Of a DNA stretch of 64,000 nucleotides, positions 16,617 to 25,627 are shown in pieces (within the stretch, counting starts at the first letter, position 1; each line of letters opens with the position of its first letter). The notes beneath the pieces are model-generated. The model saw nothing but the letters and a program-made list of their open reading frames with translations. It did no database searches and had not been told where the DNA came from. Source of the stretch: Palleronia pontilimi (GTDB lineage: Bacteria; Pseudomonadota; Alphaproteobacteria; Rhodobacterales; Rhodobacteraceae); NCBI RefSeq assembly GCF_016412875.1, contig NZ_JAEKPD010000013.1, forward strand, positions 1 to 64,000, in the 5' to 3' direction. The translations under genes were made by a program, and so were the position numbers.

Positions 16617-17387
16617 TCAGCCAAGCACGCCGCGGCGGATCAGGTTGAGACCGGCGATGACCAGCACCCACAGGGTCGCGCGGCGGAATTTCTCCTGGTC
16701 CATCCGGTCGCCGAGGCGAAATCCGACCCACATGCCCAGCGCCGCGGGCGCCAGCAGGAAGACCGAGAAGGGCAGTGTGTCGTCGTTCAGGATGCCCGAT
16801 TGCAGGTGGCCCAGCAGCAGCGCCGCCGATCCCATCCCGTAGACCACCCCCTGCACCGCCATCTGGCGCGCTTTCGGCGTGTCGAGCGCCAGCAGGTAGA
16901 GCACCGTGGGCGGCCCCCAGGTGCCCGCCAGCCCGCCAAGGATGCCCGACGCCATGCCCAGCCCCCAATCGGCCTGGGTGCGGCGATGGGGCGGGATGCT
17001 GAAGCGCAGTCCGAGCAGCTGCATCACCGACAGCGCCACGACGGGCACGCCCAGCACCACGTACATCGCCCGCGCGGGGATCACGGTCAGGAATTGCGCC
17101 GAGATCAGGATCATCACGCACACGATCCCGACATAGCGGCGATACTCGACCGCCGCGCGCCACGAATCCGCCAGCCCCGCGCGCAGGATCTGCAGCCCGT
17201 TCGACAGGAAGATCGGCAGGACGATGCCCGCGACCACCAGCCGCGGCTCGACCAGCACCGAGATGCCGGAAATCATCACCAGCGGCATGCCGAAGCCGAC
17301 CGATCCCTTCACGAATCCCGAAATAAGCGTCACCATGGCCGCGTAGAGCAATATCCCCGGTGACAGCAGGTCGGTCAGAACATCCAT
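16617..17387 (-). CDS. TauE/SafE family permease
   Basis: A 256-residue inner-membrane protein with about eight hydrophobic segments and the two-repeat TauE/SafE layout: LISGFVKGSVGFGMPLVM near the N terminus and GLGMASGILGGLAGTWGPPTVLYLLA in the second half. The family exports or imports sulfite, sulfoacetate or other anions; substrate is not predictable here. The ATG giving MDVLTDLLSP was preferred to one 57 bp upstream that would add a polar leader. It stands alone, convergent with pckA and divergent from mcd. Confidence 0.85.
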   Translation of the reverse strand: MDVLTDLLSPGILLYAAMVTLISGFVKGSVGFGMPLVMISGISVLVEPRLVVAGIVLPIFLSNGLQILRAGLADSWRAAVEYRRYVGIVCVMILISAQFLTVIPARAMYVVLGVPVVALSVMQLLGLRFSIPPHRRTQADWGLGMASGILGGLAGTWGPPTVLYLLALDTPKARQMAVQGVVYGMGSAALLLGHLQSGILNDDTLPFSVFLLAPAALGMWVGFRLGDRMDQEKFRRATLWVLVIAGLNLIRRGVLG

Positions 17388-17541
17388 GCCGCTTTCATGT
17401 CGCGGCGCGCCGCACTTTGGAAGGGCAAATGGCGCCTGCGTCATATTCGTGCGAACCGGGGCGTGCTATTGAAATCTTGTTGCGCGCGCCGCGCTGCCGC
17501 GCTAGGTGCCTTCGCAACCGCAGAATAAAGGAGCCCGCGCC

Positions 17542-19233
17542 ATGCCCCATGACGGCCAGGACATGACCGATCTCGTCGCCCCCAGCCCGGTGCTGGACGA
17601 CCTTCTGGCGACCACCGCCGCCACCCTGCCCGCTTTGGACACGCTGCTGGTCACCGCGACCGATCGCGTCCGCGCTCGGGTCACCGACGGCGAAAAGGTT
17701 TCGGCCCGGCTGGTCGAGGCGCACCAGACCGCGGCGCACGGGCTGGCGTGGCTGGGCACCTACGTGCAGGCGCTGCACCAGATGCAGGCCTGGGCCGAGC
17801 GGCTAGAGGCCGACGGCACCTTCCGCGAGCTCGAACAGCTGATCCACCAGATCGCCTTCGGGGAATACCTGAGCCAGATCGCGGGCGGCATTCCCATGAG
17901 CCAGGGCGAAATCCTGCGCCTGCCCGATCTGGGGCTGAACGCCAACGACATCGCGCCGCTGGCCACGGCCGAGATCACGCGGCTGTCGCTGACGGGCAAC
18001 ACCCAAAGCGCGCGCACCCGGCTGGTGGCGCTGATGCAGGAGCAGTCGGCCGAGATCACCGTGGGCCGATCGGGGCTGGACGACGAGCTCGAGATGATCC
18101 GCGAGCAGTTCCGCCGCTTCAGCGTGGACCGGGTCGAGCCGCACGCGCACGAGTGGCACCTGAAGGACGAGCTGATCCCGATGGAGATCATCGGCGAGAT
18201 GGCCGAGTTGGGCGTGTTCGGCCTGACCATCCCCGAGCAATACGGCGGGTTCGGGCTGTCGAAGGCGTCCATGTGCGTGGTCAGCGAAGAGCTGTCGCGC
18301 GGCTATATCGGCGTGGGCAGTCTGGGCACGCGCACGGAAATCGCGGCCGAGCTGATCCTGTGTGGCGGCACCGAGGCGCAGAAGGAAAAGTGGCTGCCGG
18401 GCCTGGCGTCGGCCGAGATCCTGCCGACGGCGGTGTTCACCGAGCCCAACACGGGCTCGGATCTGGGATCGCTGCGCACCAAGGCCACGCGCGACGGCGA
18501 CGACTGGGTGCTGAACGGCAACAAGACCTGGATCACCCATGCCGCGCGCACGCAGGTGATGACGGTGCTGGCGCGCACGGTGCCCGGCACCAGCGATTAC
18601 CGCGGTCTGAGCATGTTCCTGGCCGAAAAGACCCCCGGCACGGATGACGCGCCGTGGCAGGATCCCGGCATCTCGGGCGGCGAGATCGAGGTGCTCGGCT
18701 ACCGCGGCATGAAGGAATACACGGTCAACTTCGACGATTTCGCCGTGAAGGGCGAGAACCTGCTGGGCGGCGAGGAAGGCAAGGGCTTCAAGCAGCTCAT
18801 GGAGACGTTCGAGAGCGCCCGCATCCAGACCGCCGCGCGCGCCATCGGCGTGGCGCAATCGGCGCTGGACGTGTCGATCAAGTATGCCAACGACCGCAAG
18901 CAGTTCGGCCAGTCGCTGATCGCCTTCCCGCGGGTCAGCGGCAAGCTGGCGATGATGGCGGTCGAGATCATGATCGCGCGCCAGCTGACCTATTTCAGCG
19001 CGTTCCAGAAGGACAACGGCAAGCGCTGCGACCTGGAAGCGGGCATGGCGAAGCTCTTGGGCGCGCGGGTGGCGTGGGCCGCGGCCGATAACGGGCTGCA
19101 GATCCACGGCGGCAACGGCTTCGCGCTGGAATACAGCATCAGCCGGATCCTGTGTGACGCGCGGATCCTGAACATCTTCGAAGGGGCCGCCGAGATCCAG
19201 GCCCAGGTTATCGCGCGCCGCCTTCTGGGCTAG
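17542..19233 (+). CDS. mcd: (2S)-methylsuccinyl-CoA dehydrogenase
   Basis: An FAD acyl-CoA dehydrogenase of the ethylmalonyl-CoA pathway, which oxidises methylsuccinyl-CoA to mesaconyl-CoA during acetate assimilation and passes electrons to ETF. The 563-residue length is the clue: a helical N-terminal extension of about 165 residues precedes the normal acyl-CoA dehydrogenase core, as in Rhodobacter Mcd. In the core are FGLTIPEQYGGFGLS, TEPNTGSDLGSLRTKA, WITHAART, the FAD/CoA-binding helix and LQIHGGNGFALEYSISR, then FEGAAEIQ. AAGGAG lies 8 bases before the chosen ATG. Ordinary short-chain acyl-CoA dehydrogenases are about 385 residues, which argues against them. Confidence 0.88.
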   Translation: MPHDGQDMTDLVAPSPVLDDLLATTAATLPALDTLLVTATDRVRARVTDGEKVSARLVEAHQTAAHGLAWLGTYVQALHQMQAWAERLEADGTFRELEQLIHQIAFGEYLSQIAGGIPMSQGEILRLPDLGLNANDIAPLATAEITRLSLTGNTQSARTRLVALMQEQSAEITVGRSGLDDELEMIREQFRRFSVDRVEPHAHEWHLKDELIPMEIIGEMAELGVFGLTIPEQYGGFGLSKASMCVVSEELSRGYIGVGSLGTRTEIAAELILCGGTEAQKEKWLPGLASAEILPTAVFTEPNTGSDLGSLRTKATRDGDDWVLNGNKTWITHAARTQVMTVLARTVPGTSDYRGLSMFLAEKTPGTDDAPWQDPGISGGEIEVLGYRGMKEYTVNFDDFAVKGENLLGGEEGKGFKQLMETFESARIQTAARAIGVAQSALDVSIKYANDRKQFGQSLIAFPRVSGKLAMMAVEIMIARQLTYFSAFQKDNGKRCDLEAGMAKLLGARVAWAAADNGLQIHGGNGFALEYSISRILCDARILNIFEGAAEIQAQVIARRLLG

Positions 19234-19245
19234 GCGCGCGCCGAC

Positions 19246-19278
19246 AAGGGGACCGAGGGCGCGCTTTCGGTCCCTTTT
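19246..19278 (+). terminator. Intrinsic terminator after mcd
   Basis: An 11-bp stem (AAGGGGACCGA / TCGGTCCCTTT, one G-T pair) with a 10-base loop ends in a T run, 12 bp after the mcd stop. The A/T flanks of the stem would allow use from the opposite strand, where the doxX-like gene ends 11 bp further on. Confidence 0.8.
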
Positions 19279-19289
19279 CCTTGCGCGGT

Positions 19290-19766
19290 CTAGCTGTCCA
19301 GTTTCAGCGCCCTGTCCAGCGACAGAGCGCCCGGGCCGCGCGCGATCAGCGCAAGGAAGCACACCGCCCAAAGTCCATGCGTCACCCAGGCGTCGGGATA
19401 GACGAAGACCTGGATCACCAGCGTCATCGTCAGCAGCGCCAGGGCCGACAGCCGCGTGGCGAGGCCCAGCGCCAGCGTGACCGAGAAGACGTGCTCGGCC
19501 AGCGTTGCCAGCACCGCGGCCAGGGCCGAGGGGATCAGCGGCAGCGCGTATTCGTTCTCGAACAGCCAGAAGGTGCTGTCGGCGATGGCGAACCCGTCGA
19601 CCTTTGTGCGGGCCGAGGCCCAGAAGATCCAGGCGGGGACCAGGCGGGCCAGTAGCGCGGGCACGGTCCAGGGGATCCGGTCGAAGAGGTCGCTCAGCGA
19701 TCGCGTCAGGACCCGGGCGCGGGCCGGTTCGGTGGCGGGGCGGTCAGCGGTGCTGGTCTGGGTCAT
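19290..19766 (-). CDS. DoxX family membrane protein of the bufferin operon
   Basis: A 158-residue protein with four predicted membrane helices; the DoxX signature region [24 protein letters not shown] opens the hydrophobic part (about residues 37-60), and [22 protein letters not shown] is the central helix pair. Last gene of the bufA-bufB-bufC run, overlapping bufC by 4 bases. DoxX proteins frequently accompany bufferin-type (DUF2282/DUF692/DUF2063) operons; a redox or quinone-linked role at the membrane is assumed from the family, not shown. Confidence 0.85.
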
Positions 19767-20521
19767 GGGAACCTCGTGTTCTGGAAAGGGGCTGTGCCGA
19801 CGATCAGGCCGTGGCGCAGAAGGGTGGACAGGGTTCGGGCGATCTGGTCCTGATCCGCGTGGGCCAGGGCCGCGCCCATGGGTTTTCCCGCGGCAAGCGC
19901 GCCGATCATCCGGAATGTCGGCGGGTCGAGCGGCAGCACCGGCACGTCGCCCGCGTCGCGGAAGATCAGCGCCGCCTCGCCCCCGGCGGGCAGCGGGGCG
20001 GGATCCGCGCCGGGCTGGTTGGCGCGCCAGATCGACACCACGGGATAGTCCGAGCCGAGCAGGTGAAGGCAGGGATGCAGCGTCAGCGCCACGCGGTCGG
20101 GGTCATGGGCCGTGGCGTCCGCGAAGGCAGCGGGCGTCAGCGCAGCCGCGTCGGCGGCGTGGAAGGCCAGCCCGCGCGCCCATTCCAGCCGCGCCACGTC
20201 GGGCAAATAGGCCAGCCGCCGGGCTGGCGGGAACCCGTCGAGGAAATCGGCGAACGCGGCGCCGTATACCGCGATGACCGGAGAGCGGGGCGGGTGGGCC
20301 CGGATGAAGACACCGGCCACGGCATCGAAGAAGCGCGCGCCGACCAACCTGCGGATGACCGGAAAGCGCTGCGACAGCGCGTCGGTCAACGAATGCTGCA
20401 CCGTGTTGCGATAGACCGCGAAGCGCCGCGCCACATCCCCGGTCGCGATGACGCCCGGCGGCACGCCTGTGCCGGTCAGCGCGGCCCCGAACGCGGCCTG
20501 CAGCTCACGATGCGCGGGCAT
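19763..20521 (-). CDS. bufC: Bufferin partner protein BufC (DUF2063, putative DNA-binding-domain family)
   Basis: A 252-residue protein of the HvfC/BufC (DUF2063) family. The N-terminal helical domain shows [29 protein letters not shown] (read here as RFAVYRNTV then [13 protein letters not shown], about residues 33-62), a hallmark of the family; the C-terminal half carries the [17 protein letters not shown] motif. The database label DNA-binding is historical: the known role is as partner of the MNIO enzyme in modifying the precursor peptide. Overlaps bufB by 17 bases and the DoxX gene by 4. Confidence 0.88.
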
Positions 20522-21359
20522 GGCGCACCCCGTCGAGGATCGCGTCGGCGCGCCGCGCCTCGGCCAGCAGGACCGGAAGGTCGGGCACGTCGTTGTCCCA
20601 TTCGATCAGGGTGGGCAGCGGTCCGGTCGCGGCGATGGTTTCGGCGTAAAGCGTCCAGACCGGGTCCGCCACCGGTGCCGCGTGGCTGTCGATGAGCAGC
20701 GGGCCCGACGGCAGGTCTTCGGCATCGTGCCCGCCCAGGTGGATTTCGCCCACGGCGTGCAGCGGGAAGACGGACAGGTAGGCGCGCGGGTCGGCCACGT
20801 GGTTGGTGCAGCTGACGAAGACGTTGTTGATGTCGAGCAGCAGGCCGCAGCCCGTGCGCCGCGTGATTTCGGCCAGGAAGTCGGTTTCGGCGAGGGTCGA
20901 TGCCTCGAACGTCAGGTAGGTCGAGGGGTTTTCCAGCAGCATCGGTCGGCCCAGCGCGGTCTGCACCTGGTCGATATGCGCGCAGACCGTCGCCAGGGTC
21001 GCGTCGTCGTAGGGCAGCGGCAGAAGGTCGTTGAGAAAGGCGTCGTCGTGGCTGGACCAGGCCAGGTGCTCGGAAAAGCTATCGGGCTGGTAGCGGTCGC
21101 AGAGGGTCCTGAGACGGGCCAGGTGGGTGGCGTCGAGCGGCCCCGCGCCACCGATGGACAGGCCGACGCCGTGGACCGACAGCGCGTAATCGGCGCGCAG
21201 GGCGGCCAGCTGGGCGTGCGGCGGGCCGCCCGCGCCCATGTAGTTCTCGGCGTGGATCTCGATGAAGCCGAGGCCCGTCCGGGTCGCGTGCAGCCCGTCG
21301 AAATGGGCGCGTTTGAAGCCGATGCCGGTGGCGGGGGGAAGTCCGGTGGGGAAGCTCAT
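20505..21359 (-). CDS. bufB: MNIO-family enzyme BufB (DUF692), bufferin maturase
   Basis: A 284-residue multinuclear non-haem iron oxidative enzyme of the DUF692 family. The TIM-barrel residues that hold iron are visible as EIHAENYMG (about 33-41), [11 protein letters not shown] (about 61-71), [38 protein letters not shown] and IEWDNDVPD. In characterised bufferin systems this enzyme converts cysteines of the precursor into oxidised heterocycles. It lies between bufA (83-bp gap) and bufC (overlap), exactly the known order. Confidence 0.92.
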
Positions 21360-21442
21360 GGCGGGCCTTTCCGTCTGGGGATGAGTGGATCACGCGCGCC
21401 GCGACCCCTGGGGGGAAACGTGTCGCGGCGCGCGGGGCTGGA

Positions 21443-21742
21443 TTACGCGGGACGATCACGCTCCAGCGGCTCGAGCGACCCCATGCGGGCGCTGCCGTCG
21501 GCCATGGCGGGAAGCTCGATGTCGGTGCAGCTGCCTTCGGGAACCAGCGTCCAGGCGTTGCCCTGGTAGTCGATGGTCGATGTGCCCGCGCAGGTGGTGC
21601 CGGGACCGGCGGCGCAGTCGTTTTCACCGGCGAGCGAAACGCCGTAGCACTTCACCATGTCCTGGGCGCTGGCGGCACCGGCCAGTCCGCAGGCGCCGGC
21701 AATGGCAAGGGCAAGGGTGGCGGTGGTCCTGTTGGTTTTCAT
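21443..21742 (-). CDS. bufA: Bufferin precursor peptide (BufA1/DUF2282 family)
   Basis: A 99-residue exported precursor. The signal peptide (about residues 1-26, ending ASAQ) is followed by a mature peptide with four cysteines: Cys32 in KCYGVS, Cys43 and Cys51 in the [13 protein letters not shown] core, and Cys72. This matches the four-cysteine layout of copper-binding bufferins, in which the inner cysteines are oxidised by BufB. Expected role: periplasmic copper sequestration. Transcribed from an ECF-type promoter 56 bp upstream that matches the one before the divergent sigma gene. The 83-bp gap to bufB may allow different expression of the peptide and its enzymes. Confidence 0.9.
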
Positions 21743-21797
21743 GTGGGTCGTCTCCCGTGATGTGTCGGCGCCCCCAATGGCCGCCGATGCAGGTCAG

Positions 21798-21823
21798 TTC
21801 GCGCCGGGGGGCGGCATCGTTAC
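21798..21823 (-). promoter_or_regulatory. ECF-type promoter of the bufferin operon
   Basis: On the minus strand GTAACG is followed by exactly 16 bases and then CGAA, ending 56 bp before the bufA ATG. The same arrangement occurs on the plus strand before the sigma-factor gene 88 bp away. The GTAAC / CGAA pair resembles the sigma-F promoter I recall from Caulobacter metal-stress genes. Confidence 0.7.
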
Positions 21824-21910
21824 ACGGCTCGCGTCTTGGTGATCGGCTGAAATCCCGGGCGCCGGGACGGCGGACGTGGCGAGATTGCGTGATTTTTCGC
21901 GCGCCGGGCT

Positions 21911-21936
21911 GTAACATTCGGCACCGGTCCCGCGAA
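21911..21936 (+). promoter_or_regulatory. ECF-type autoregulatory promoter of the sigma-factor gene
   Basis: GTAACA, a 16-base spacer and CGAA, matching the promoter of the divergent bufA. CGAA ends only 9 bases before the ATG, so a start site 6-8 bases downstream would give an almost leaderless message; an AGG lies 5 bases before the ATG. This implies positive autoregulation of the sigma factor. Confidence 0.68.
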
Positions 21937-21945
21937 TAGGACAGC

Positions 21946-22530
21946 ATGGACGACCCCCGCGATCTTCGATGGGCCAACCTGCTCCGCCGCGCCAACCGGG
22001 GCGAACGGCAGGCTTACCTGATGTTTTTGCGCGAAATCGCGCCGGTGCTGCGCGGCGTTATCGTGGCGCGGGGCGGTGCGCGGATCGACGACAGCGAGGA
22101 CATCCTGCAGAACACGCTGATCGCCATCCACGAAAAGCGCTACACGTGGCGCGATGGCGATCCGGTGGCGCCCTGGCTCTATTCCATCGCGCGCTACAAG
22201 ACCGCCGACGCGTTCCGCCAGAGACGCCGCAACCGCGCCGATCCGCTGGACGGCGTCGAGCTGACGACACCGGACGACGCGACCGTGGATCCCAGCGTAT
22301 CGTACGATCTGGACCGCCTGCTGGCCGGTTTGGACGACACGTCGGCGCATATCGTGCGCGAAATGAAGCTGCGGGGCGCCAGCGCGGCCGAGACCGGCGC
22401 CCCGCTGGGCATGAGCGCCGGTGCGGTGCGGGTGGCGCTGCATCGCGCGCTGGCAAGATTATCGAGCCGCGTGGGCCAGCCGGACGCCCCGCCGCGGACA
22501 AGCAAGGAAAAGACCCATGAGAACCGATGA
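21946..22530 (+). CDS. sigF: ECF RNA polymerase sigma factor, SigF-like (NrsF-controlled type)
   Basis: A 194-residue ECF sigma factor. Region 2 shows DDSEDILQNTLIAIHEKRYTW (read DDSEDILQNT then IAIHEKRYTW) and PWLYSIARYKTADAFRQRRR, the -10 recognition helix; region 4 includes AAETGAPLGMSAGAVRVALHRAL, the -35 helix-turn-helix. It directly precedes a six-helix NrsF-type anti-sigma factor with a 14-base overlap, and is divergent from the bufferin operon. Both flanks carry the same promoter pattern, so it most likely drives the bufferin genes and itself in response to metal stress, as SigF does in Caulobacter. Confidence 0.88.
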   Translation: MDDPRDLRWANLLRRANRGERQAYLMFLREIAPVLRGVIVARGGARIDDSEDILQNTLIAIHEKRYTWRDGDPVAPWLYSIARYKTADAFRQRRRNRADPLDGVELTTPDDATVDPSVSYDLDRLLAGLDDTSAHIVREMKLRGASAAETGAPLGMSAGAVRVALHRALARLSSRVGQPDAPPRTSKEKTHENR

Positions 22531-23155
22531 CCTGATCGCCGCACTGGGGGCCGAGCCTTCGCCGGTGCGCCCGGTCCCGCTGGGGCGGGTCGTGCTGGGC
22601 GCGCTGGCGGTGGGCGGCGCCGTCACAGGCGCGCTGTTCGCGGCGTTCTGGGGGGTGCGGATGGATCTCTCGGCGGTGCTGTTCGATCCGTTCCTGCTGG
22701 CCAAGACGCTGCTGCCCCTGGCGCTGGGCGTGCTGGCGGTGCCGGTGGGCCTGGCCAGCATCCGCCCCGGTGGGGTGACGCGCGCGGCGGCGGGCTTGTG
22801 GTTGGTGCCGGTCGTGCTGGTGGGGCTGGTGGCCGTGGCGCTGTGGGTCACGCCGCCCGCGCTTTGGTGGACGTCTTTCGTGGGGCATTCGATCGCGACG
22901 TGCCTGCCGTCGATCTTCCTGCTGTCGGTGCCCGTCAGCGCCGCCCTTCTCGCAGCCTTCCGCAGCGGCGCGCCCGAGCATCCGGCGCGCGCCGGGGCCG
23001 CCGCGGGGCTGATCGCGGCCGGTGTGTCCGCGGCGATTTACTCGGTCTATTGCACCGAGGACTCGCCGCTGTTCTACGCGGCGTGGTACACGCTGGCGAT
23101 GGCGGCGGTGATCGGCGCATCGGCGCTGGCCGGACGCCACCTGCTGCGCTGGTAG
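22517..23155 (+). CDS. nrsF: NrsF family anti-sigma factor (DUF1109)
   Basis: A 212-residue inner-membrane protein with six hydrophobic helices, the layout of DUF1109/NrsF anti-sigma factors. Two cysteines, Cys129 in HSIATCLPS and Cys179 in SVYCTEDSP, lie at nearly the same positions as the paired cysteines that Caulobacter NrsF needs for metal sensing. The ATG has AAGGAA 7 bases upstream, inside the end of the sigma gene, so synthesis of the two is coupled. Expected to hold the sigma factor at the membrane until copper or another oxidising metal acts on it. Confidence 0.88.
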   Translation: MRTDDLIAALGAEPSPVRPVPLGRVVLGALAVGGAVTGALFAAFWGVRMDLSAVLFDPFLLAKTLLPLALGVLAVPVGLASIRPGGVTRAAAGLWLVPVVLVGLVAVALWVTPPALWWTSFVGHSIATCLPSIFLLSVPVSAALLAAFRSGAPEHPARAGAAAGLIAAGVSAAIYSVYCTEDSPLFYAAWYTLAMAAVIGASALAGRHLLRW

Positions 23156-23177
23156 GATGGCCCGAAAGGACGTTTCC

Positions 23178-23573
23178 ATGCGGATCGCGATATCGCTGGT
23201 GATCGCCGGGCTGGCCCTGTCCGCCTGCCGCGGCGACGAGACGATTTCGGCCTTCGCCCCGCCCGAGACGGTGTTCGCGCTGCGCAGCCTTGACGGGACC
23301 CCGGCCGCGGCCCGTGCGACGATCCGGTTCCCGCGGCCCGGTGAGGTCACCGGCACCGGGCCCTGCAACGCCTTCTCGGCCGCGCAGACGGCCCCCTATC
23401 CGTGGTTCGCGCTGGGGCCGATCCGCGCCACGCGGCGGGCCTGCCCCGAACTGGGGGTCGAGGCCGCGTATTTCACCGCGCTGAAGCAAGCCACGATCGC
23501 CGAGGTTTCCGGCGACACGCTGATCCTGTCGGATCCCGGCGGCCCCGAGCTGGTGTTTCAGGCCGACAACTGA
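23178..23573 (+). CDS. META domain-containing lipoprotein
   Basis: A 131-residue protein with a lipoprotein signal ending LALSACRG (lipobox Cys at about 17), then a META/HslJ-like domain: the VTGTGPCNAFSA motif corresponds to the conserved GCN segment, with a second cysteine in RRACPELGVEAAYF. The start is the ATG preceded by AAAGGA 7 bases upstream. It is 22 bp after nrsF and therefore probably in the sigma-factor transcript; META proteins are often envelope-stress or heat-shock associated. Its 3' end overlaps recO of the other strand by 16 bp. Confidence 0.8.
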   Translation: MRIAISLVIAGLALSACRGDETISAFAPPETVFALRSLDGTPAAARATIRFPRPGEVTGTGPCNAFSAAQTAPYPWFALGPIRATRRACPELGVEAAYFTALKQATIAEVSGDTLILSDPGGPELVFQADN

Positions 23574-24289
23574 CGCGCCAGGCGGCCGATCAGCCGCGCG
23601 CGGGCGGCGGGAAACGGACGGTCGCCGAGCGATGCGGACAGCCAATTGGTCAGGAAATGGCCGGTCAGGCCCAGCCCCTCCAGGAGCTCGGACGCGCTGG
23701 CCGGACCCTGCCCCAACAGGCAGGCGGGCAAGGGCAGCAGGCGCGGCGCCCAATCGCCCGCGGCGTCGCGCGACACCGCGCGCCCCGTGCGCGGCGACAC
23801 GAAGGCCAGATCCTCGCGACTGCCGGTGAGCGCGCACCGCGTCAGGTCCAGCCCGAAGCCAAGCTGTTCGAGCAGCTCCATCTCCCAGAACAGATAGGCG
23901 AGCGGCCAGTCGCCATCCGTCCCCATCCGGTCGAGCAGGTCGACGCTTTGGGCGTAAAGCCGCGGCTGTGCCTCGCGCTCGGGCAGGACATGGCCCAGGA
24001 TCGCGGTCACCGCGCTGAGCCCGGCCAACGCCAGCGGGTCGCCCAGAAGGCCTGCGCGCGAGCGCACGGGCTCGACCGTGAAGGCCCCCATGTGATCCTC
24101 GAGCCGCGCGCGCCAGCGGAACGCCATCTGCGCGCCGGGCTGCAGCAAGGGGCCGAGCCTGCGCCCCGCCCCGCCGCGCACGACGCCCAGGTGCCGCCCG
24201 TGGCCCGGCGTCAGCGCCTCGACGATGGCGTTGCCTTCACCGTGCTTGCGCGCCGCCAGCACGACCCCTTCTTCGGACCATTCGATCAG
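23558..24289 (-). CDS. recO: DNA repair protein RecO
   Basis: Recombination mediator that loads RecA on gapped DNA with RecF/RecR. Family features are the OB fold beginning IEWSEEGVVLAARKHGEG, HGRHLGVVRGG, and the helical domain with WPLAYLFWEMELLEQLGFGLDLTRCALTG. RecO normally starts with Met-Glu-Trp; here the expected ATG is ATC. The only initiator that keeps this first strand is a CTG just before it (AAAGGG lies 8 bases upstream), giving 243 residues. A GTG nine codons later gives a shorter, conventional start that loses the first strand. The C-terminal end overlaps the META gene. Last gene of the acpS-to-recO cluster. Confidence 0.85.
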   Translation of the reverse strand: MIEWSEEGVVLAARKHGEGNAIVEALTPGHGRHLGVVRGGAGRRLGPLLQPGAQMAFRWRARLEDHMGAFTVEPVRSRAGLLGDPLALAGLSAVTAILGHVLPEREAQPRLYAQSVDLLDRMGTDGDWPLAYLFWEMELLEQLGFGLDLTRCALTGSREDLAFVSPRTGRAVSRDAAGDWAPRLLPLPACLLGQGPASASELLEGLGLTGHFLTNWLSASLGDRPFPAARARLIGRLARQLSA

Positions 24290-24303
24290 GGCGCCGTCCC
24301 TTT

Positions 24304-24328
24304 CCCATCTTTGTTCTCGAAAATATCC
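24304..24328 (+). repeat. Dispersed intergenic repeat, copy 1
   Basis: CCCATCTTTGTTCT, three bases (CGA), AAATATCC. One of five copies in the window; this one lies between the DUF1491 gene and recO, overlapping the leader of recO. It differs from the other four after the core (ATGG in place of CGG). Confidence 0.8.
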
Positions 24329-24355
24329 ATGGCCCGCCGCCCCCTGCCCGCGACG

Positions 24356-24685
24356 TCACTCGAGACCGGGCGCATCCAGCAGGTGCCGCCCGGCGCGGTC
24401 CTCGACCTCGACGACCCAGAGGTCTGGATCGAAGCGCCGCTGCGCCGCGACCGAGGCCGACACCTCGGCCTCGGTGCCCGCCATCAGCTCGACCCAGACC
24501 CGCGCGCCGCTTTGCAGATCGAAACTGCGCTGGAACACGCGCGCCTGTCCATCGAGCGTGGCGACAACGATCATCACCGCCCCCGCCGTGGCGTCCCCCT
24601 TGGCGGCGATGAAGGCGGTGATGCCTTCGCCTTCGAGCCTGCGCAGGTAGGCGCGGACCCAGAAATCCGCGGTCAGCCGCGCCAC
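24356..24685 (-). CDS. DUF1491 family protein
   Basis: A 109-residue soluble protein that matches the DUF1491 family of alphaproteobacteria: it begins LTADFWVRAYLRRLEGEGI, contains KGDATAGAVMI and an acidic-basic ending with RRFDPDLWVVEVEDR. The gene regularly sits between era and recO in this group, which supports the call. A role linked to ribosome or membrane maintenance could be guessed from position, but nothing in the sequence shows it. Confidence 0.82.
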   Translation of the reverse strand: MARLTADFWVRAYLRRLEGEGITAFIAAKGDATAGAVMIVVATLDGQARVFQRSFDLQSGARVWVELMAGTEAEVSASVAAQRRFDPDLWVVEVEDRAGRHLLDAPGLE

Positions 24686-24721
24686 CCGCGCCCCCGAATT
24701 TTCGGCGAAAATTCGCGCCCC

Positions 24722-25627
24722 TCACCCGCCATCGCGGATGTCCAGGCCGATCTCGCTGTAACGCTCGGCCTCGTCCAGCCAGCCGGGCCGCACCTTGACC
24801 TGCAGGAAGAGGTGGATCTTGCGGCCGGTGAATTCTTCCAGGTCCGCCCGCGCCGCCTGGCTGATCGCCTTGATCGTTTCGCCCTTCTTGCCCAGCACGA
24901 TGCCCTTGTGGCCGTCGCGGATCACGTAGATCACCTGGTCCACGCGGGCCGAGCCGTCCTTGCGCTCTTCCCAGTTCTCGGTTTCCACCGTCAGCTGGTA
25001 GGGCAGTTCCTGGTGCAGCCTAAGCGTCAACTTCTCGCGCGTCATCTCGGCCGCGATCATGCGCAGCGGCAGATCGGCCAGCTGGTCTTCGGGATAGAGC
25101 CACGGACCCTCGGGCACCGCGTCCGCCAGCCAGGCCTTCAGGTCGTCAACCCCGTGCCCCTTCTCGGCCGAGATCAGGAACGTCTCGGCGAAGGCGTAGC
25201 GGTCGTTGAGTTTCTTCGTCAGGCCCAGCAGCACCGGCGCCTCGACCCGGTCGATCTTGTTGATGGCCAGCACCACCGGCGCGGTGATCTGCCGCTCTTC
25301 CAGTGTCGTCAGGATCGTCTCGACCCCGTCGGTCAGGCCGCGATGCGCCTCGACCAGCAGCACGACGATGTCGGCATCGGATGCGCCGGACCACGCCGCG
25401 GCGACCATGGCGCGGTCCAGGCGGCGGCGCGGCTGGAACAGGCCCGGCGTGTCCACGAAGACCAGCTGCGACTGCCCGGCCATGGCCACGCCGCGGATCC
25501 GCGACCGCGTGGTCTGCACCTTGTGGGTCACGATGGCGACCTTGGCGCCCACCATGCGGTTGAGGAGCGTGGATTTGCCCGCGTTGGGCTCGCCCAGAAG
25601 GGCGATCACTCCGGCGCGTGTGGTCAT
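24722..25627 (-). CDS. era: GTPase Era
   Basis: A 301-residue GTPase that binds the 3' end of 16S rRNA and helps 30S assembly. G1 is GEPNAGKST at residues 12-20, G3 is DTPG, G4 is NKID, and the C-terminal KH domain has the VIYVIRDGHKGIVLGKKGETIK signature (read RDGHKGIVLGKKGETIK). Normal length. It follows rnc in the usual cluster, but here bciA on the other strand and a permease gene have been inserted between the two. Confidence 0.95.
   Translation of the reverse strand: MTTRAGVIALLGEPNAGKSTLLNRMVGAKVAIVTHKVQTTRSRIRGVAMAGQSQLVFVDTPGLFQPRRRLDRAMVAAAWSGASDADIVVLLVEAHRGLTDGVETILTTLEERQITAPVVLAINKIDRVEAPVLLGLTKKLNDRYAFAETFLISAEKGHGVDDLKAWLADAVPEGPWLYPEDQLADLPLRMIAAEMTREKLTLRLHQELPYQLTVETENWEERKDGSARVDQVIYVIRDGHKGIVLGKKGETIKAISQAARADLEEFTGRKIHLFLQVKVRPGWLDEAERYSEIGLDIRDGG

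Follow-up and report, generated by a model that had tools for sequence, protein, structure and literature searches.

In Caulobacter crescentus, the genes CC3252-CC3257 (nrsF, sigF, DUF2282, DUF692, DUF2063 and DoxX) have been reported as SigF-dependent and inducible by chromate and cadmium, with NrsF acting as a negative regulator in which two conserved cysteines matter, and with SigF found soluble after dichromate (PMC3511200). In a later account all six genes were copper-induced in four conditions, two of the values passing only a laxer test, and a sigF::Tn5 mutant was copper-sensitive (PMC8224329). A cluster survey records genes for a sigma factor and NrsF in clusters of type Buf1, though not in those of type Buf2 (PMC12452194), and thiooxazole copper peptides have been grouped as captophorins (PMC13097082). 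Here we describe a bufferin operon, bufABC-doxX, divergent from a sigF-nrsF pair, in a 64,000-nt stretch of the Palleronia pontilimi genome (contig NZ_JAEKPD010000013.1, hereafter the window). The locus is very probably a Caulobacter-type bufferin-1 system under SigF-NrsF control, either acquired between an acyl-CoA dehydrogenase (ACAD) gene and META-recO or kept there while congeners lost it.

A bufferin-1 operon divergent from a sigF-nrsF pair

Profile comparison recovered bufA, bufB, bufC, doxX, the extracytoplasmic function (ECF) sigma gene, nrsF and a META-domain gene, all at the positions proposed in an earlier note made from the sequence alone (Table 1). The four families named there, DUF2282, DUF692, DUF2063 and DUF1109, were all matched (PF10048, PF05114, PF09836 and PF06532, respectively). 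The operon holds the set of genes that defines a Buf1 cluster, namely a DUF2282 precursor with four cysteines, a BufB-type MNIO enzyme, a DUF2063 partner and a DoxX gene; its DUF2282 gene is the only one in the P. pontilimi genome (3.72 Mb, listed as 98.98% complete). bufB, bufC and doxX overlap end to end, bufC sharing a few bases with both its neighbours. On the opposite strand sigF and nrsF also overlap, and together they have the features of an ECF16 SigF-NrsF pair, that is an NrsF anti-sigma with two conserved cysteines and predicted ECF16 promoters before both the target and the sigma genes.

The BufA cysteines at positions 32, 43, 51 and 72, to which Cys18 adds within an N-terminal stretch judged by eye to be a signal peptide, are each present in all 100 related loci compared. 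In NrsF the residue numbers first given, Cys129 and Cys179, proved exact, and these are kept in 81 of 82 and 82 of 83 related loci, respectively; for both proteins, some of the loci counted may share one genome. The six helices attributed to NrsF are not contradicted by a simple hydropathy scan, which gave ten peaks, several of them overlapping, and which is no topology prediction. Finer labels are not claimed, since the NCBIfam models for BufA2 (19.6 bits on BufA, cut-off 60), HvfX (54.9 bits on DoxX, cut-off 80), HvfC (63.5 bits on BufC, cut-off 142) and the NrsF equivalog (NF042994, 86.5 bits, cut-off 300) stayed below their cut-offs. Model NF009165 scored 158.8 bits on SigF, below its cut-off of 198. 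A different layout, with sigF-nrsF following doxX in the same orientation, is seen at L082, L093, L098, L099, L107, L108, L124 and L130.

Predicted promoters and SigF regulon

The 203-bp gap between bufA and sigF contains the motif TGTAAC-N15-CGCGAA once per strand, outward-facing. Only these two matches were found in the window, against 0.02 expected from shuffles, and only two in the whole genome. With the looser TGTAAC-N16..18-CGAA they were still the only matches genome-wide, the same pattern read backward giving four as a control. Both ECF16 matches of the genome lie at the buf/sigF locus, so the direct SigF regulon is predicted to comprise no other locus. The motif is identical to the consensus published for ECF16, (T/C)GTAAC-N17-CGAA (PMC8315932).

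Among 80 named loci retained, 40 had divergent sigF and bufA matches. In these, the pattern GTAAC-N15..18-CG(A/T)A occurred on the buf side in 37, on the sigF side in 39 and on both sides in 36, while both were present in none of 200 single-base shuffles; the spacer was 17 in 68 of 76 motif sites of related loci. The strict first pattern had been too narrow for relatives, being present in three of the 40 loci on each side and on both sides in one. Since the motif was loosened after inspecting the same loci, the count of 36 is in part a product of fitting; the published consensus was consulted only after that step. The view of the earlier note, a self-contained bufferin-1 operon under a divergent SigF-NrsF pair, is backed by the protein families, the promoter motif, the genome-wide motif scan and the published Caulobacter data.

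With its promoter ending so close to the annotated ATG at 21946, sigF is predicted to be transcribed from about 3-4 nt ahead of that codon. The message would then be almost leaderless, unless translation begins at the ATG at 22021 and yields a protein of 169 residues. A Loktanella locus (L078) shows the same 9-nt spacing. For Bradyrhizobium EcfF, transcription is reported to start 6 bp after the -10 box, and a later start codon is thought to be used, giving 170 residues (PMC3420878).

Table 1. Features of the bufferin locus in the window.
Feature	Position	Strand	Evidence or remark
doxX, DoxX-family membrane protein of the buf operon	19290..19766	-	PF07681, E 1.1e-15
bufC, DUF2063 partner of the MNIO enzyme	19763..20521	-	PF09836, E 5.5e-25
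bufB, MNIO bufferin maturase	20505..21359	-	NF050167 (MNIO_BufB), 379.9 bits, cut-off 310; PF05114, E 5.5e-104
bufA, Buf1-type precursor, signal-like N terminus, four conserved Cys	21443..21742	-	PF10048 (DUF2282), E 1.1e-23
Predicted ECF16/SigF promoter of bufABC-doxX, TGTAAC-N17-CGAA	21798..21824	-	
Predicted ECF16/SigF promoter of sigF-nrsF, TGTAAC-N17-CGAA	21910..21936	+	Ends 9 nt before the annotated sigF ATG
sigF, ECF sigma factor (typed as ECF16 from its promoter and partner)	21946..22530	+	PF04542 and PF04545, over cut-off
nrsF, anti-sigma (family formerly DUF1109), Cys129 and Cys179	22517..23155	+	PF06532, E 4.9e-48, 164.1 bits, cut-off 26.8
META-domain lipoprotein	23178..23573 (23157-23573 with the upstream start)	+	PF03724, E 1.9e-17

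The META gene and the history of the site

The earlier note had also read the META-domain lipoprotein gene as an unusual third gene added to the sigma unit. Its position was rightly described: from the better start, judged by eye to be the ATG at 23178 (GAAAGGA upstream, lipobox LSAC), the gene begins 22 nt after nrsF on the same strand, and a convergent recO comes next. The arrangement is indeed rare, META adjoining NrsF in one of 58 NrsF-bearing genomes, that of P. pontilimi itself. The set of 58 combines 49 family genomes, P. pontilimi among them, with nine genomes of the same class, all over the Pfam cut-off; four of the 53 family genomes that pass it (G170, G199, G214 and G268) were excluded for having partial matches. 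On this count META was rejected as a conserved SigF-NrsF partner. In genome G050 META and NrsF lie on one contig, about 8 kb apart, and none of the papers searched contains both "META domain" and "NrsF".

As to META being an addition to the unit, relatives show it as older, beside ACAD and recO. Three congeners (G004, G007 and G013) carry TauE-ACAD-META-recO-DUF1491-era, and nothing matching a buf or sigma gene separates ACAD from META. In G126, of another genus, one contig holds the same block, and NrsF lies next to DUF2282 on a different contig. Because relatives carry ACAD-META-recO without the module, META is taken as an older resident of the site and not as part of the module by descent.

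The META site is itself variable. The surroundings of 20 META genes, all in further genomes of the family, were compared, out of 50 META matches from the adjacency count. An ACAD match was present in five (L162, L163, L172, L176 and L177; about 1.6 kb off in L172), and recO adjoined META in three (L162, L170 and L172) and lay 1.4 kb off in L176. Neither was found in 14, five of which (L160, L161, L167, L174 and L175) do not match the META of the window. Within the genus the recO neighbourhood varies too, TauE adjoining recO in G006 and G011 and ACAD in G010, with no TauE, ACAD or META match within 1.5 kb of recO in G001, G002, G003, G005, G008, G009 and G012; META is located elsewhere in G001 and G008. 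At loci L064 and L067 (TauE) and L072 (ACAD) the gene stands directly beside recO, with no META match. In P. pontilimi the module lies in front of META.

NrsF is patchily distributed. Of 100 relatives 20 pass its Pfam cut-off, as do 53 of 394 family genomes (P. pontilimi included in both counts). None of the 13 sampled congeners passes it, one of them (G012) having a short sub-threshold match. DUF2282 was found in one of the 13, G001, at another place; there, bufA-bufB-bufC lie on another contig (L157, G001:C46, 11-1743), and the stretch retrieved around them contains nothing that matches sigF or nrsF. Insertion of the module in this lineage, rather than loss elsewhere, would be the simpler reading. 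An inverted pair (17 nt, 88%) within the doxX and META coding sequences (19413-19429 and 23188-23204) was taken as chance, and no RNA families were found in 17000-25000.

Transcription from the sigF promoter may read through into META; a weak terminator scan gave two sites, against 1.9 expected from shuffles, neither of them between nrsF and META. We tentatively propose, as a possibility rather than an expectation, that the module, on landing before META, brought an unrelated lipoprotein gene under SigF control, and that this gene is metal-stress-induced in this lineage. Such a capture, if true, would be a natural example of a regulon enlarged by insertion, in which an old envelope protein comes under a new stress response. 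As to function, lying behind a module of such patchy distribution speaks only weakly for a shared role.

Inducer, alternative readings and described relatives

Judging by homology, copper is the likely inducer of the P. pontilimi system, and we infer the following course of events from its published relatives. NrsF would keep SigF at the inner membrane in resting cells. A surplus of copper, or a different thiol-reactive stress, would act on NrsF via Cys129 and Cys179, and the freed SigF would then serve both ECF16 promoters, that of bufABC-doxX and that of sigF-nrsF itself. BufB and BufC would turn the two inner cysteines of BufA into thiooxazoles, and the peptide, exported via Sec, would chelate periplasmic copper.

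Several observations weigh against this account of an acquired, copper-responsive, one-locus system. According to the Caulobacter report, sigF is dispensable for chromate or cadmium resistance (PMC3511200), and the related gig cluster of Cupriavidus metallidurans is described as having no effect on copper resistance, possibly masked by other determinants (PMC8224329). In GC content the module (0.706) and the window (0.692) do not differ, so that composition gives no sign of transfer, and no flanking repeats stood out at the module edges. Allowing one mismatch in the motif yields five further matches in the genome, bringing the total to seven; these five were not counted because the backward control gives 11; motif scans miss weaker promoters, and such sites could be overlooked. 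Across the 58 NrsF genomes the narrow pattern occurs at 37 places in 25 of them, many outside the NrsF locus, with a backward control not lower, and the pattern alone is therefore not specific. Other ECF16/NrsF pairs respond to chromate, cadmium, H2O2 or HOCl.

The module could accordingly be real and yet have oxidative or chlorine stress as its main inducer, NrsF being a redox sensor and copper secondary, since ECF16 pairs with the same two cysteines are reported to answer H2O2 in Bradyrhizobium, where Cys179 is required, and HOCl in Brucella (PMC8315932, PMC3420878). We regard this as quite unlikely, given that methionine sulfoxide reductase (Msr) genes recur in those regulons, whereas the sole ECF16 matches here face bufABC-doxX and sigF; besides, the Caulobacter copy is copper-induced, though its regulon has Msr genes too (PMC8224329). 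As for the META gene, one might see in it a recruited part of the copper response, its periplasmic lipoprotein helping under metal stress, in keeping with its place just behind nrsF, its own ribosome-binding site by eye and the gap free of terminator-like sites in the weak scan. Its adjoining NrsF in a single genome and its presence in the module-free block of three congeners and G126 make such a role improbable. Moreover, Caulobacter sigF is described as not strongly autoregulated by metal, its operon being only modestly induced by dichromate, though strongly by copper (PMC3511200, PMC8224329).

The reverse history, in which the module was ancestral in the genus and cleanly lost from the other lineages, would agree with a composition matching the host and with NrsF being widespread but patchy in the family. 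It is unlikely in view of the 13 congeners, none with NrsF over the cut-off and one with DUF2282, at another place, and of G126, a member of another genus that has the same block with no module inside.

A Caulobacter-type bufferin-1 system is already known, and the P. pontilimi locus is an ordinary complete copy of it, whose sole anomaly, the META gene, is explained. New here are the two divergent promoters unique in the genome, the patchy distribution of NrsF and the finding that META is not part of the module by descent. With one sigma factor, one anti-sigma, two promoters, no other predicted target and a single DUF2282 gene, the locus represents a minimal case that could reveal inducer and function free of the complications which a second buf operon and Msr genes bring in Caulobacter. 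Modest interest may attach to the regulon of a single locus and to META as a possible capture.

Among the described systems, Bradyrhizobium EcfF-OsrA and Brucella BcrS-AbcS have in common with the locus the promoter consensus and Cys129/Cys179, and differ in being tied to oxidant or hypochlorite resistance, DUF2282 being unmentioned in the main text of either report (PMC8315932, PMC3420878). The Buf1 clusters, as surveyed, have the same DUF2282 precursor, MNIO enzyme, DUF2063 partner, DoxX gene, sigma factor and NrsF, with no difference in the core; the passages of that survey compared here do not mention a META-domain gene (PMC12452194). Compared with the P. pontilimi locus, Caulobacter CC3252-CC3257 shows the same gene set, divergent order and promoter type, with the conserved NrsF cysteines at C131/C181 in place of C129/C179. 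The two differ in the META gene that follows nrsF here and in the reach of the sigma factor, since in Caulobacter a second buf operon and a cluster of methionine sulfoxide reductase type are under SigF control as well, whereas in P. pontilimi every ECF16 promoter match of the genome belongs to the one locus.

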